DNA of 44,786 nt from an uncultured Verrucomicrobiota bacterium (GTDB taxonomy: Bacteria; Verrucomicrobiota; Kiritimatiellia; Kiritimatiellales; Pontiellaceae), in NCBI GenBank assembly GCA_913065005.1, contig CAJYAJ010000009.1, forward strand, positions 1 through 44,786, read 5' to 3'. The notes beneath the pieces are model-generated. The model was given only the letters and a program-made list of their open reading frames with translations, had not been told where the DNA came from and did not search any database. Shown here in pieces: positions 23,818-30,484 of the stretch. The number at the start of each line of letters is the position of its first letter. Within the stretch, counting starts at the first letter, position 1. Both the position numbers and the translations under genes were made by a program.

Positions 23818-24387
23818 TTAATACATCTGGCTATAACCGAGTTGAATCGAATGGCCGCCTTGTTCAACCTCTAGTTCGCTGCTTTCAAAGTCATTGGCGA
23901 ATAGATATTTGTATTCGAGGTTTATTGAGCAATCTTCATCGATTGCTTGAGAAATACCTATCCCGAGTTGGGCTCCGAATACAGTATCGCCAATATCTAC
24001 AATATCAATTTCAACTTCTGTACTGATAATACCAACTCCGCCCAGCAGATAGGTTTCGAGTTCATTTGATAAATCAAGGAAGTACATTCCGTTCAGCATG
24101 GTCGACCATTGAGTTACGTCACTCGTGCCTTCGTCCCATTCTGTATCTAAATAACTGAGTGCCAGTTCAATGGCAATGGGCATGCCGGCGCATCTAACGC
24201 CTAATGCGCCTTCGATGATATAGCCAGCTTCATACTCAACCTCACCTAAGTTCACACCAATAAACGTAACATCAGCATCACTGGGTTGCGCCCAGCCGCC
24301 ACTAAGACTCCAGTAGGTTCCTTGTCCGGCAGATGCTCCGAGAGCTACGGTTGCAATTAAAAGCAGTAATACGTTTTTTTTATTCAT
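23818..24387 (-). CDS. Outer-membrane beta-barrel protein (OmpA-like 8-strand type)
   Basis: A 189-residue exported protein. A Lys-Lys N-terminus and hydrophobic core end in GASA, a good signal-peptidase I site near residue 20. The rest is rich in alternating aromatic and small residues (SYWSLSGGWAQPSD style openings, LALSYLDTEW, LGGVGIIS) and ends in Tyr, as expected for an outer-membrane beta-signal. No periplasmic peptidoglycan-binding domain follows. Function is unknown; such small barrels are often structural or adhesins. It is a close paralogue of the damaged gene next to it at 24461-25029. Confidence 0.8.
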   Translation of the reverse strand: MNKKNVLLLLIATVALGASAGQGTYWSLSGGWAQPSDADVTFIGVNLGEVEYEAGYIIEGALGVRCAGMPIAIELALSYLDTEWDEGTSDVTQWSTMLNGMYFLDLSNELETYLLGGVGIISTEVEIDIVDIGDTVFGAQLGIGISQAIDEDCSINLEYKYLFANDFESSELEVEQGGHSIQLGYSQMY

Positions 24388-24417
24388 TTTTCATTCCTTT
24401 CGTTTAGTGAAAATCAT

Positions 24418-24443
24418 TTCACCCATCACGAGGGATGGGTGAA
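24418..24443. terminator. Perfect hairpin between the two beta-barrel genes
   Basis: TTCACCCATC (24418-24427) and GATGGGTGAA (24434-24443) form a perfect 10-bp stem with a 6-nt loop. No immediate T-run follows on either strand, so it may be an RNA-stabilising or operator element and only a weak terminator. Confidence 0.45.
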
Positions 24444-24460
24444 GCATGGGTAAAATCGAT

Positions 24461-25029
24461 TTAATACATGTAGGTGATGCCCAGCTGAAGGATTTGAGTG
24501 TTGAATTCAACTTCACTTTCATTGATTTCGAGATTATTAGCGAACAGATAGCGATATTCGAGGTTCAGACAGGTCATGGGATCGATGGAGTAGCAGATGC
24601 CGGCTCCGAGTTGCCCTGCAAAATCAATGTCGCCGTCGATATCATCAGAATCGTAATCGATCAATCCAACCCCTGCTAAACAAAGGGTGTAAAACAGGAG
24701 CTAGAATCGATGAAGTACATGCCATTTAACATGAGTGTCCAGACATCTACGTCTAGACTGGTTGAATCACCCTTCATATTCGCTTCATTTTGTTGATAAG
24801 AGAGTGCGAGTTCATAAGCAATGGGTAGATCGCTGATCTTATTCCCGATCGCTCCTTCGATGATCCATCCTGCGTCGTATTCAATTTCTCCTGCAGTCGT
24901 GCCAGACTCTATAATATCACCATCACTGGGTTGTGCCCAACCGGCACTGAGGCTCCAATAGGATTGTTGATCGGCGATGGTTCCTGCTGCAATAAGTAGG
25001 CTACATGTGAATACCATTAATTTTTTCAT
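24461..25029 (-). pseudogene. Second beta-barrel outer-membrane protein, frameshifted
   Basis: Paralogue of the 23818-24387 gene. The N-terminal part (25029 to 24676) has a signal peptide and SYWSLSAGWAQPSDGD, reaches MLNGMYFIDSSSCF and then hits a stop. The rest continues in another frame (GVGLIDYDSDDID, then CLNLEYRYLFANN and a final ITYMY). Adding one T to the T4 run (A4 on the plus strand at 24691-24694) restores one frame of about 189 residues through FYTLCLAGVGL. It is either a recent one-base deletion or a sequencing error. Its ATG overlaps the radical SAM fusion gene by 4 nt, so it is at the end of the pyrC operon. Confidence 0.75.
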
Positions 25030-26774
25030 GCTTTAAAGTCGATGATCCGTTGTTCACGGTTGCGAACAATTTCACGATGCGTCCAGAGTAGATGTGGATC
25101 GTGAAAGGGGATGCCTCGGGTGGTGGTTTCGAGCGAGTGTTGTTCTTTCTCGGATATGGGCTGAAGAAGAAGATGGGCGTCTAGCGTGGCTTGCGTTCCT
25201 CTGTGAGGACGTCCGACTGGGGTTGTTTCGCCAATGGAAAAACCGGCTTGCAGCAGACCAGCGCGTATGGGGCCGGCAGCAGCATAGGTGAAGAGTTGAG
25301 CGTGAGGTCGCATGATTCGTTTGATTTGTTGAAAGAATTGCAGGGTCCAACATTCGCTGTTGCGGGGTGAGGAGAAGGCGTCCAGAAAGATGAGATCTAC
25401 GGACGTATCGGGTAGCCGTGTGAGGGTATGGCGGGCATCGCCCCATTGCATATGAATGGGATGCTCGGGAAGGGGTGTGGCAGATCCATGCTCATAAAGT
25501 TGCCGCAGTATGGCGTTCCAGTTGAAGTGGGCTTTTGGATCGGTGGGCAGGATTTCAGCGGCATGCCGGACGATGCGTCGATCCATTTCAAGTGCGGTTA
25601 TTTGAAGGGGGTGAGCAGCACCGATGGCGGCGTTAAGTGCGGCATGGCTGTTGTAGCCGAGTCCAAAGCAAATATCGAGCAGGTGGAGGGGTTTGTTTTG
25701 AAGTAGTTCATGAAGATGGGCAGGTTGGACATATTTTTCTTCGGCTTCGAGGTGGGCTCCGGTACGGGTATGATAATGTTCTTTTACGTGATCATTCCAG
25801 AAGGTGGTTGATCCATCGTCGGTGATAACGGGATGAATGGTGAGTTCGGTGGGGGGCTCAGTATGAGTGTATGCGGGGAAAAGATCACCTTGCCGCCATT
25901 CTCGGGCTTCCATTTGGGCGATGATATAGTTCCGAAATTTTTGTTTATCCATCTGCCAGCGGGGGGCGATAAGTTCATGATCGAGCGTATCGGTGGTTAA
26001 GCGCATGATCGGGAGGGTGGGTGGCATACGGCGGATAAAATCAATCAGATGTTCGCCAAAGGTATATTCATTGAAAACGGGGAGGGGGGTGAGGGCATGC
26101 TCGAGGGCTAGGGTGGTTCCTTTCTCAATGTGGAGGTTGTGGATTTTTACGGCTTGTATGGGCAGTTGAGCGAAGCGGTCGGCGGTTGCTTGAAAATCGG
26201 TGGCGGTTTCGCCGGGTAGACCGAGAATGGCGTGGAGGGCGATGGGTATATTTGCTTGATGAAGAAGCTCAATGGCACGTTCGCTGCTGGCCCAGTCGTG
26301 TCCGCGATGAACGCGTTCGAGGGTGGCATCGTGGATGGTTTGTACACCGAGTTCCACCCAAACTTCGATATGGCGATTGAGTTCGATGAGGAAGTCGAGG
26401 GCTTGTGGGGTGATGCAGTCGGGGCGGGTGCCGATGCTAACGGCTGTGAAGGGAAATTGATCAAGTAGATTGAGATATAGAGGTTGTTGGGATGCTCCGA
26501 AGGTGGCAGAGAAGGCTTGGATATAGGCCATAAATTTTTTGGCACCATATCGGCGTCGGGCAAAATCGATGGCGACTTGCATTTGTTCTTCGACGGTTTC
26601 GGTGCCGAGGGTTTGAACGGCGGCCGATCCCCGGAGATTACAGAAGGTGCAGCCGCCTGATCCGTCGGCTTCCCGGTTGGGACAGCCAAAGTTAAAGTCG
26701 ATCGGAACGCGGTGAAGCGGCGCACCGTGGCGTTCAATCATGAAATCTTTATAGGAGGTGAAGGGGAGCTTCAT
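25026..26774 (-). CDS. Radical SAM (TIGR01212/YhcC-like) fused to MnmC-like methyltransferase
   Basis: A 582-residue two-domain protein. Residues about 1-300 are a radical SAM enzyme of the TIGR01212 group (YhcC; YtqA in Bacillus), with the [4Fe-4S] cysteines at 31, 42 and 45 (C-x10-C-x2-C) and later LGVQTIHD and ILGLPGET. Residues about 310-570 are a class I SAM methyltransferase like the methyltransferase half of MnmC (DUF752): SAM loop DICFGLGYN (367-375) and LDAFSSPRNSECWT (464-477), which matches the D-x-F-x-P-x-(K/R)-N-x-x-x-W motif. No FAD oxidase half is present. The family link to tRNA wobble uridine modification is known; the joint role is inferred. It overlaps pyrC and the barrel gene by 4 nt each. 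Confidence 0.85.
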   Translation of the reverse strand: MKLPFTSYKDFMIERHGAPLHRVPIDFNFGCPNREADGSGGCTFCNLRGSAAVQTLGTETVEEQMQVAIDFARRRYGAKKFMAYIQAFSATFGASQQPLYLNLLDQFPFTAVSIGTRPDCITPQALDFLIELNRHIEVWVELGVQTIHDATLERVHRGHDWASSERAIELLHQANIPIALHAILGLPGETATDFQATADRFAQLPIQAVKIHNLHIEKGTTLALEHALTPLPVFNEYTFGEHLIDFIRRMPPTLPIMRLTTDTLDHELIAPRWQMDKQKFRNYIIAQMEAREWRQGDLFPAYTHTEPPTELTIHPVITDDGSTTFWNDHVKEHYHTRTGAHLEAEEKYVQPAHLHELLQNKPLHLLDICFGLGYNSHAALNAAIGAAHPLQITALEMDRRIVRHAAEILPTDPKAHFNWNAILRQLYEHGSATPLPEHPIHMQWGDARHTLTRLPDTSVDLIFLDAFSSPRNSECWTLQFFQQIKRIMRPHAQLFTYAAAGPIRAGLLQAGFSIGETTPVGRPHRGTQATLDAHLLLQPISEKEQHSLETTTRGIPFHDPHLLWTHREIVRNREQRIIDFKA

Positions 26775-28090
26775 CGGTTGAAACGGAGTCGCATTCCGCG
26801 AGTTGATTCGTTGGGAGTTCCTTTGTGATAGGCGAGTTGGCCGTTGACGAAGGTGGCGGCAACGGTGGCGCTGAAGGTGATCCCTTCAAAGGGAGACCAG
26901 CCGCAGTGGTAGAGGATGTTTTCGTTGGATACGGTGTGCGGTGCATCGGGGTCGATGAGTGTGAGGTCTGCGTGGTAGCCTTCACGAATGAAGCCCCGCT
27001 CTGCGATTTGATAGATGGTTGCAGGGTTGTGTGCGGTTTTTTGTACGATCTGTTCGGGTGTCATGAATTCGAAGAGAACCTGAAGGGCGCTTTGCACCAC
27101 GGGCATGCCGGAGGGAGCCTTGAAATAGGTGTGTTGTTTTTCATCCAATAAATGGGGGGCATGATCCGTTCCTACCGTATCGATCAAACCTGTTTTTAGT
27201 GCCTCTCGCAGGGCTTTTCTATCTGCTGCTGTTTTGATGGCCGGATTGCATTTTATACGTGAACCGAGCTGATCGTAATCGTCTTCAGAGAACCATAAAT
27301 GATGAGGACATGCTTCAACGGTTATCTTTTTATCTGCGACTGCTGAGGGTTCAAAAAATTCTAATTCTCGAGCGGTTGTCATATGCAGAATATGAATTTG
27401 AGTGTCATATGCTTTTGCCCGAGCAACCGCCTCTTTTGTGGATAACCAGCAGGCTTCGGATGATCGAATATTGCCATGTTCTCTAAAGGGGATCTGTTCG
27501 CCATATTTTTCGAGTGCCGCTTGCTCGTTATCACGAATAATTTGATCGACTTCGCAGTGCAGGGCAATGGGTACCTTGACTTGTTTAAATATCTGATCAA
27601 TTTGTTCTTCTCTGTTCACAACCAAGTTGCCTGTTGAAGATCCTAAAAATAATTTTACGCCGCAGACCCATTCCGGATCGAGGGTGAGGAGTTCATCGAG
27701 GTTATGGTTGGATGCACCGAGATAGAATGAATAGTTGGTGTGTGAGGTTTCGGCGGCAAGGGTATATTTTTCTTCGAGAGCGGCAAGGGTTACGGCGGCT
27801 GGTTTGGTGTTGGGCATTTCCATGGTGGAGGTAATCCCGCCGGCTACCGCTGCGCGACTCTCGCTGGCGATGGTGCCTTTGGCTTCAAGGCCGGGTTCTC
27901 GGAAATGGACATGCACATCGATCATACCCGGCAACACTAATTTGCCCGCTGCATCAAAGACGGTTTCGTTTGCGCTGCCCTCAATGGAGGAAGCGATGGA
28001 TTCAATTCGTCCATTTCGGATGAGCAGATCGCCGGTTTGAATCTGATTTTCGTTTACGATACGGGCGTTTATAATTCGTCGTGTTTGCAT
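26771..28090 (-). CDS. pyrC: Dihydroorotase (class I)
   Basis: Zn amidohydrolase that cyclises carbamoyl aspartate to dihydroorotate in pyrimidine synthesis. With the ATG at 28090 it has 439 residues and begins QTRRIINARIVNE, like the family. The frame extends to a GTG at 28141. Metal and substrate motifs are DVHVHFREPG, VKLFLGSSTG (bridging Lys), LHCEVD, IHILHMTT, CPHHLWF and GTDHAPHLLDEK. It is the first gene of the minus-strand run pyrC, radical SAM fusion, beta-barrel. Codon composition shifts within the gene: the 3' part, near 26.8-27.1 kb, is more C-rich on its coding strand. Confidence 0.93.
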   Translation of the reverse strand: MQTRRIINARIVNENQIQTGDLLIRNGRIESIASSIEGSANETVFDAAGKLVLPGMIDVHVHFREPGLEAKGTIASESRAAVAGGITSTMEMPNTKPAAVTLAALEEKYTLAAETSHTNYSFYLGASNHNLDELLTLDPEWVCGVKLFLGSSTGNLVVNREEQIDQIFKQVKVPIALHCEVDQIIRDNEQAALEKYGEQIPFREHGNIRSSEACWLSTKEAVARAKAYDTQIHILHMTTARELEFFEPSAVADKKITVEACPHHLWFSEDDYDQLGSRIKCNPAIKTAADRKALREALKTGLIDTVGTDHAPHLLDEKQHTYFKAPSGMPVVQSALQVLFEFMTPEQIVQKTAHNPATIYQIAERGFIREGYHADLTLIDPDAPHTVSNENILYHCGWSPFEGITFSATVAATFVNGQLAYHKGTPNESTRGMRLRFNR

Positions 28091-28187
28091 CTGCTCAACG
28101 TAGGTGATGAGTTCGGCGGAATCAAGGCGCTTATCTATCACACTTTTTTTGCTTTTTTACGTTAATTTATTCGAATCCGAGCGATTG

Positions 28188-28289: not shown

Positions 28290-29969
28290 ATGAGTGAATT
28301 TGTGCAGCAACGAATAAGTGATGAAGAAGCATTAGATATGCTCAAGCATATGCCGACGGCAGAACTGATGGCACGTGCCAACGAAATTCAGCGGGCGCGG
28401 CATGGAAACAAAGTGTATTATGTGCACAGTCATAATTTGAATCCGACCAATTTATGCGTCGTGAAATGTAAACTCTGTTCGTTTTATCGAGATGAAAATG
28501 CGCCTGATGCGTATGTCACAACGCTTGAAGATGCGCGAAAAGATTTAGAAAAAGCACAGGGGCACAACCTAACCGACCTGCATATTGTGGGTGGAATGAT
28601 TCCAGAGCTGGATATTGGATATTATGAAGATCTATTCGCTTTATCCCGTGAAATGCTACCAGGTGTTTTGCTGCAAGGTATGACGGCGGTTGAAATTCAT
28701 TGGATTGCAGGGAATGCAGGCATTTCAGTGAAAGAGTGCTTGGAACGATTAACCGCGAAGGGGTTTGGTTCAATTTCTGGGGGTGGAGCAGAAATTTTTC
28801 ATCCGGATGTGCGCAAAAAAGTCGCGACTACGAAGATTCTAGCGCAGCATTGGTTAGATGTTCATCGGGAAGCTCATGCGCAGGGAATTCCAACGAATGC
28901 AACGATGCTCTTTGGTCATATAGAGAAAGATGAGCATCTGATTGATCATCTCTCGCGTCTGCGCTCATTACAGGATGAGACCGGAGGTTTCCAAGCGGTT
29001 ATTCCGTTGCCTTTCCAAGCGAATGGAAAAGCGCTCGGTGTTAAATATAGTCCAACTGGAGATCGTCAAGTGCGTGTGGCGGCTTTGTCGCGCATCTATT
29101 GTGATAATTTTCCGCATGTACGGATGTTGGTAAATTATATGGATCGGAAACTATTGGGCGTTTTGACGCACAGCGGGGTGGATGACATTGGGGGTACCAG
29201 CTTGAATGAACGGATTGCGAAGGAGGGCGGGGCTCCTCAAAGCCAGAAGTTCTTCACGGCGGAAGAGATGGAAGAGTTTTTAGTGAATCATGGGCATACA
29301 CCGGTGTTGACGAATAGTGCCTATGATCAACTTGAAGGGCAGCCGGATGTGAAGGCGTTGCCTCCCATGCCGACCGTTTCAACGCGTTGGAAACCGATTT
29401 TGGATCGCGTGGAATCAGGGGAACGGATTAATGCAGAGGATGCGACGATCCTTATGGACGAAGCCCCTTTCCAAGAATTGGGTCGTGTGGCGGCGAAAAA
29501 ACGGGCGCTTGCAGTTCCGGGTGATCTGGCAACCTATGTATTTGATAAGAATTTAAACACGACCAACGTCTGTGTGGTGGATTGTAAATTCTGTGCCTTT
29601 TATACCAACCCAGAAAACAAGCGGGGCTATACCCGAACACCGGAACAAATTTTGGAAGAGGCGAGAAAAGCAGCCGAAGCAGGGGCCACTCAAATCTTGA
29701 TTCAGGGCGGATTGAACCCGGATTTGAAATTAGACTATTACGAGAAATGTCTGAGTTTGATTCGAGATAATGTAGATATTTGGATTCACTCATTATCACC
29801 AACCGAAATCGAGTTCATTGCGGCGGAAGAAAATATTACGATTAAGGAGTGTTTAAAACGTTTACAAGCGGCTGGGTTACAATCATTACCGGGGGGGGTG
29901 CAGAGATGTTGGTGGATGATATTCGAAAAGCCATCAGCCCTAAAAAAACGCGTTCACAAGCGTGGCTAG
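28290..29969 (+). CDS. mqnE: MqnE-MqnC fusion (aminofutalosine synthase plus start of dehypoxanthine futalosine cyclase)
   Basis: Radical SAM fusion for menaquinone by the futalosine route. Residues 1 to about 370 are MqnE-like: HNLNPTNLCVVKCKLCSFYR (cluster cysteines), QGMTAVEIHWIA, SGGGAEIFHPDVRKK, TNATMLFGH and DETGGFQAVIPL. A linker leads at about 410 to a second domain with TTNVCVVDCKFCAFYTN and IHSLSPTEIEFIA, typical of MqnC. The frame is lost at a G8 tract (29891-29898): SLPGGV is read where SLPGGGAEM is expected, and the ORF ends 23 codons later. Nine Gs would fuse it to the next ORF, giving about 731 residues. GAGGAAG precedes the ATG. The layout mirrors the FbiC fusion of CofG and CofH, but the active-site phrases fit MqnE and MqnC better. 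Confidence 0.85.
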   Translation: MSEFVQQRISDEEALDMLKHMPTAELMARANEIQRARHGNKVYYVHSHNLNPTNLCVVKCKLCSFYRDENAPDAYVTTLEDARKDLEKAQGHNLTDLHIVGGMIPELDIGYYEDLFALSREMLPGVLLQGMTAVEIHWIAGNAGISVKECLERLTAKGFGSISGGGAEIFHPDVRKKVATTKILAQHWLDVHREAHAQGIPTNATMLFGHIEKDEHLIDHLSRLRSLQDETGGFQAVIPLPFQANGKALGVKYSPTGDRQVRVAALSRIYCDNFPHVRMLVNYMDRKLLGVLTHSGVDDIGGTSLNERIAKEGGAPQSQKFFTAEEMEEFLVNHGHTPVLTNSAYDQLEGQPDVKALPPMPTVSTRWKPILDRVESGERINAEDATILMDEAPFQELGRVAAKKRALAVPGDLATYVFDKNLNTTNVCVVDCKFCAFYTNPENKRGYTRTPEQILEEARKAAEAGATQILIQGGLNPDLKLDYYEKCLSLIRDNVDIWIHSLSPTEIEFIAAEENITIKECLKRLQAAGLQSLPGGVQRCWWMIFEKPSALKKRVHKRG

Positions 29970-30484
29970 ATTTACATGATGACGCTCATTCGATTGGAAT
30001 GAAAACGACGGCTACCATGGTGTATGGCTTTGGTGAAACCGGCGCCCAGCGGGTTGAACATTTGATAAAGGTACGAGATCAACAAGATAAATCTGGCGGC
30101 TTCACTGCCTTTATTCCTTGGAGTTTTTCTCCGAATAAAACCAAGTTAGATTGTCCGCGTTTGATGAACGGAACGGATTATTTGCGGATGGTGGCAATGG
30201 CTCGCATCATTTTGGATAATATCCCGCACTTGCAGGCGGGTTGGGTCACTGAAGGGCCGGATGTTTCTCAGTTGGCACTGCAATTTGGTGCAGATGATTA
30301 TGGCGGGGTATTGATGACCGAAGAGGTGGTGAGTGCCACTGGTTTAGAATATGGCGTTACGGAAGATCAAGTCGTGAATATGATTCGCGAAGCGGGCTAT
30401 GTACCTGCGCAACGAACCACACAATATGATACGATTCGTGTCTATGGGGATGAAGAAGAACCGGTAGGAGCATACGATGGCTAA
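29849..30484 (+). CDS. mqnC: MqnC C-terminal part in the shifted frame
   Basis: This frame holds the rest of the cyclic dehypoxanthinyl futalosine synthase: GGGAEMLVDDIRKAISPKK, TTATMVYGFGETG, GGFTAFIPWSFSPNKTKL, YLRMVAMARIILDNIPHLQ, WVTEGP and FGADDYGG. Real homology starts at about 29891. The GTG at 29849 only marks the first possible start and codes an unrelated decapeptide, so the part is likely to be expressed as the end of the upstream ORF, by frameshift or after correction of a sequencing error. It overlaps the DUF2237 gene by 8 nt. Confidence 0.75.
   Translation: MFKTFTSGWVTIITGGGAEMLVDDIRKAISPKKTRSQAWLDLHDDAHSIGMKTTATMVYGFGETGAQRVEHLIKVRDQQDKSGGFTAFIPWSFSPNKTKLDCPRLMNGTDYLRMVAMARIILDNIPHLQAGWVTEGPDVSQLALQFGADDYGGVLMTEEVVSATGLEYGVTEDQVVNMIREAGYVPAQRTTQYDTIRVYGDEEEPVGAYDG

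Follow-up and report, generated by a model that had tools for sequence, protein, structure and literature searches.

The window examined here is a 44,786-nucleotide stretch of DNA from an uncultured Verrucomicrobiota bacterium, and it carries on its minus strand, at positions 25026-26774, a gene that raises a simple question: what would a protein do that joins a radical SAM domain of the MnmL type to a methyltransferase of the MnmC type? The initial annotation had proposed that the two are fused in one polypeptide that may act on the tRNA wobble uridine. The fusion itself is borne out, since the gene is one uninterrupted ORF of 582 amino acids, with the radical SAM half followed by the methyltransferase half, and profiles of both domain families match it; the residues and positions given for it are likewise correct. 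The host genome bin measures 1.2 Mb and is 79% complete, and its relatives belong to the Kiritimatiellales.

The ATG of the fusion gene overlaps by 4 bases the stop of an upstream pyrC-type dihydroorotase gene (26771-28141, minus strand; 636.9 bits to NF006688), which is context only and lies outside the system. The same pyrC neighbour adjoins the fusion in relatives L002-L004, L006, L007, L011, L012 and L015, and in the Kiritimatiellales the fusion gene is frequently flanked by pyrC and aroF. At its other end, it directly precedes an outer-membrane-protein-like frame. This frame belongs to a tandem pair of outer-membrane beta-barrel-like genes (23818-25029, minus strand), and the member adjoining the fusion seems to be split into frames 24676-25029 and 24461-24664, perhaps as a broken copy. 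Elsewhere in the window (28290-30484, plus strand), MqnE and MqnC, the radical SAM pair of the futalosine pathway to menaquinone, are apparently fused; they form one continuous frame in relative L003 (337-2484, minus strand), and the interruption of the MqnC frame near a run of eight G in the window is probably a sequencing or assembly error.

From the profile searches, the N-terminal half (residues 5-300; 25875-26762, minus strand) is a member of TIGR01212, named 'tRNA modification radical SAM protein MnmL/YtqA' in NCBIfam, with a score of 220.6 bits against a cut-off of 180, and the Pfam families Radical_SAM (PF04055) and Radical_SAM_C (PF16199, residues 206-289) both match above gathering. 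The cluster motif CX10CX2C, formed by C31, C42 and C45 (26640-26684, minus strand) as had been claimed, is invariant in all 36 aligned fusion proteins, and the cluster cysteines of E. coli YhcC align with the same three residues. YhcC is itself a TIGR01212 member and came up as a control match in the profile search, in a genome that also carries a complete MnmC; thus membership of this family alone is no proof of MnmL function.

The C-terminal half (residues 310-582; 25029-25847, minus strand) matches PF05430 (Methyltransf_30, formerly DUF752) with 80.3 bits against a gathering threshold of 22. Its score of 101.8 bits to the MnmC2 equivalog model NF033855 (residues 328-516) lies below the cut-off of 136, as do those of four stand-alone MnmC2 proteins tested from Verrucomicrobiota (90-113 bits), and we therefore regard it as a divergent MnmC2. 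Residue equivalences were taken from an alignment with E. coli MnmC, obtained from its genome, in which 37 fusions were included. The SAM-binding loop D367-ICFGLGY-N375 (25650-25676, minus strand) places F370, G371 and G373 at the positions of E. coli F67, G68 and G70, E396 (25587-25589, minus strand) corresponds to E101, and in the motif at residues 464-477, LDAFSSPRNSECWT (25344-25385, minus strand), D465 and F467 correspond to D178 and F180; all six residues are invariant in the 37 fusions. Together with D367, N375 and W476, they are also kept in 36/36 aligned fusions. The loop at 367-375 and the D465-x-F467...W476 motif stand where the initial annotation had put them. Where the E. coli protein has D26, the fusions carry E or Q. 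For the E. coli enzyme, D178 has been proposed as the base, E101 is described as contacting the SAM ribose, and F67, G68 and G70 make up the SAM loop (PMC3648344). The Pfam search detected neither an FAD/DAO domain nor PF06962 in the fusion protein, in agreement with the claim that the FAD oxidase half of MnmC is missing from the chain.

The predicted structure agrees with these assignments. An AlphaFold2 model built from a 36-row alignment reached a mean pLDDT of 91.0 and a pTM of 0.89, and its C-terminal half superimposes on Aquifex MnmC2 (3vyw) with a Z score of 30.0 over 261 residues (rmsd 2.5 Å), and on E. coli MnmC with a Z score of 21.7. The sequence search of solved structures likewise gave 3vyw as the top match (5e-25), with no TIGR01212 structure among the matches. 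The C-terminal domain is thus placed by both profile and closest structure inside the MnmC/DUF752 family, and not outside it, the position that the initial annotation had named as grounds for refuting its proposal. For the N-terminal half, the structural neighbours are Elp3 proteins from yeast, human, mouse, archaea and bacteria, with Z scores of 18-25 (best 24.6). Elp3 is a radical SAM tRNA enzyme that acts on wobble U34.

The same fusion was then sought in other genomes, as had been suggested. A scan of named genomes gave full-length fusions in seven MAGs (53-90% identity), all of the Kiritimatiellales type because the search patterns were drawn from the window protein. A sample of 289 Verrucomicrobiota genomes reached much further, with full-length fusions down to 34% identity, several of them on megabase contigs, including single contigs 3-4 Mb long. 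In a near-identical sample of 289 counted by profile, both domains share one open frame in 58 genomes. All 36 aligned fusions (36/36) match both TIGR01212 and MnmC2. Such a two-domain frame is far beyond chance, and its recurrence in the same frame in 58 genomes of several classes rules out an assembly chimera or a frame artefact; the presence of several copies on megabase contigs adds to the conclusion that the fusion is genuine. Plasmid records yielded only single TIGR01212 proteins and no fusion.

Among the 289 genomes, MnmL (TIGR01212) is present in 73 and MnmC2 (PF05430) in 81, and the two occur together in 65, against 20 expected (58 fused, 7 as separate genes; Fisher p about 6e-40, uncorrected for the relatedness of the genomes). 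Not one of the 289 combines MnmL with a DAO-type bifunctional MnmC or with a fusion of MnmC2 to TGT (queuine tRNA-ribosyltransferase). The 16 carriers of MnmC2 without MnmL comprise one free MnmC2, four bifunctional MnmC and eleven TGT-MnmC2. Pfam confirmed the DAO domain in two of the four and the TGT fusion in six of the eleven, the remainder being assigned by the length of the frame and its score. Conversely, eight genomes have MnmL without MnmC2, and 4/8 of these carry MnmM, while the profile search found neither MnmC2 nor MnmM beside MnmL in G048, G114, G217 and G271. This pattern indicates that MnmL travels with some nm5 methyltransferase, either MnmC2 or MnmM, and that it avoids arrangements that may have another route to nm5.

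We have also checked the partners of the pathway in 57 fusion genomes, a set drawn, like the profile counts, from near-identical samples of 289 Verrucomicrobiota genomes. The initial annotation had predicted loss of the MnmC oxidase and presence of mnmE and mnmG, and this is what was found: the oxidase (TIGR03197) scores above cut-off in 0/57 and MnmM (PF06962) was found in 0/57, with MnmG in 55/57, MnmE in 56/57 and MnmA in 55/57, the few missing cases being perhaps due to incomplete bins. The idea that these genomes hide an MnmC oxidase or MnmM at some other locus was thus discarded at the cut-offs used. Some fusion genomes give weak DAO oxidase matches below 83 bits (cut-off 174), and a divergent oxidase may be present in some of them; these matches are uninformative, since 13/14 control genomes give them as well. 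Where it recurs across the Verrucomicrobiota, the fusion appears to replace the classical MnmC.

Two other arrangements came to light in these genomes. In four Verrucomicrobiota genomes, G128, G229, G039 and G173 (L040, L041, L064 and L065), MnmM has a stand-alone DAO-type oxidase no more than about 300 bases away. The score of this oxidase against the model of the MnmC oxidase, 57-82 bits, is below cut-off, and a separate oxidase plus MnmM arrangement is possible in these genomes. In other members of the phylum, TGT (PF01702) is fused to the PF05430 MnmC2-type methyltransferase (Pfam-confirmed at L043:1467-3512, L044:1764-3797, L045:960-2879, L046:920-2944, L047:655-2700 and L049:1844-3871), a single chain thus holding two wobble-34 enzymes that serve different tRNAs. 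The SAM loop of TGT-MnmC2 differs from that of MnmC by F67 to L and G70 to A, and the profile search found no MnmL in any of the TGT-MnmC2 genomes.

In trees of each half, the fused proteins form two large groups, with the window protein in the Kiritimatiellia-type group, and the TGT-MnmC2 and DAO-MnmC2 domains form clades of their own in the methyltransferase tree. The separate MnmL and MnmC2 proteins of a few families (f5, f32) fall within or beside the fused groups, and in the radical SAM tree the unfused proteins branch close to fused relatives. Three label changes are required on each of the two trees, which is compatible with one fusion followed by later splits or losses. The fused radical SAM domains and the MnmM-paired ones of Verrucomicrobiota are separated by about 1.2 changes per site on each side of the root. 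Within the window lineage, the two halves have diverged unequally from those of genus relatives, with a path of about 1.16 for the methyltransferase half and about 0.53 for the radical SAM half, roughly a twofold difference.

On these grounds, we consider it likely that the fusion is a bifunctional wobble-uridine enzyme, whose radical SAM half converts cmnm5(s2)U34 to nm5 and whose methyltransferase half converts the latter to mnm5. What was observed of the domain families, the fold, the residues of the active sites and the genome-wide pattern supports the wobble-uridine role first suggested; the reaction is what we infer from them, by analogy as regards the substrate, the radical chemistry and its by-product, the order of the steps and any hand-over between the sites. 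In the proposed scheme, MnmEG would install cmnm5(s2)U34 from glycine or nm5(s2)U34 from ammonium, and MnmA would add the 2-thio group. A [4Fe-4S] cluster on C31, C42 and C45, together with SAM, would then generate a 5'-deoxyadenosyl radical that strips the carboxymethyl group from cmnm5(s2)U34 to give nm5(s2)U34, and the MnmC2 domain would methylate the amine, with D465 as the likely base, to give mnm5(s2)U34. Consistent with the first step, MnmL has been listed as an MnmC alternative for nm5s2U formation (PMC12548931). Several observations count against this reading: the pairing of YhcC with MnmC in E. coli, the long branches between the fused and the MnmM-paired radical SAM domains, the NF033855 score, the four genomes in which MnmL has neither MnmC2 nor MnmM, the E or Q at the position of D26, and the weak oxidase matches. 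The fusion need not imply channelling, because the two active sites of E. coli MnmC lie about 45 Å apart and act independently (PMC3648344).

Could the methyltransferase half alone belong to the mnm5 pathway? MnmEG places cmnm5 or nm5 at U34 and can use ammonium as a donor (PMC9976899), so nm5U34 might reach MnmC2 directly, with the radical SAM half performing some other YhcC-type reaction at the same or another tRNA site. The retention of YhcC beside MnmC in E. coli would fit this, as would the TGT-MnmC2 genomes, which have neither MnmL nor DAO-MnmC, meaning that MnmC2 is able to work without either. However, the distribution in 289 genomes, where MnmL is nearly always accompanied by a free or fused MnmC2 or by MnmM and never by DAO-MnmC or TGT-MnmC2, is not what an unrelated reaction would lead one to expect, and we regard this explanation as unlikely.

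Two further explanations seem to us very improbable, to much the same degree. Decarboxylation of the glycine moiety of cmnm5U34 would chemically be expected to yield mnm5 in one step, and the radical SAM half might thus make mnm5U34 outright, leaving the methyltransferase merely to rescue nm5U34 derived from ammonium. Against this, B. subtilis MnmM converts nm5s2U to mnm5s2U, and its loss leaves nm5s2U with mnm5s2U undetectable (PMC9976899); since nm5s2U accumulates in this way although MnmL is present, MnmL itself makes no mnm5 in that organism. Nor is it easy to suppose that the family resemblance misleads and that a different nucleoside or RNA is the target. TIGR01212 is a broad family and the methyltransferase half is divergent by its NF033855 score, but the MnmC active-site residues are invariant and the closest match among solved structures is an established MnmC2. 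The accompanying MnmE, MnmG and MnmA speak in the same direction, though weakly, as they are near universal. The bifunctional wobble-uridine enzyme thus remains the preferred reading.

Each half is already known, and so are bifunctional MnmC and the route through MnmL and MnmM. E. coli MnmC also takes cmnm5 through nm5 to mnm5 in one chain, as the fusion is inferred to do, with a homologous methyltransferase and the same active-site residues; however, it has the FAD oxidase MnmC1 in place of the radical SAM domain, and the domain order is reversed, the methyltransferase of the fusion being C-terminal. The MnmL and MnmM pair (YtqA and YtqB) of Bacillus and Streptococcus likewise combines an MnmL-family radical SAM protein with an nm5 methyltransferase, but MnmM (PF06962) is a separate protein of a different family, in whose place the fusion uses the MnmC2 type. 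Stand-alone Aquifex MnmC2 (DUF752), the closest solved structure at 27% identity, is not joined to a radical SAM domain. Elp3 of Elongator shares the fold of the N-terminal half at 15-19% identity, yet it bears an acetyltransferase domain and adds a group of the carboxymethyl type, whereas the fusion would remove one.

No description of an MnmL-MnmC2 fusion was found in the literature searched, whose reach did not extend to the MnmL paper of Jaroch et al. 2024. The abstract of that paper reportedly mentions 'fusion proteins', and the present one may be among them. A bolder proposal is that MnmL-MnmC2 is an undescribed enzyme type. Its radical SAM domain would stand in for the MnmC oxidase, which uses oxygen, and would pass nm5U34 on to the methyltransferase attached to it, and the enzyme would provide the main mnm5 route for much of the Verrucomicrobiota. 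To this proposal we give slightly less than even chances.

Taken together, the mutual exclusion between MnmL and the other MnmC2 arrangements supports annotating the TIGR01212 members of these genomes as mnm5 enzymes. The fusion, with its dozens of orthologues, allows both steps to be assayed on one protein. As its methyltransferase is MnmC2 and not MnmM, it also gives the radical SAM step a second and independent tie to the mnm5 pathway.
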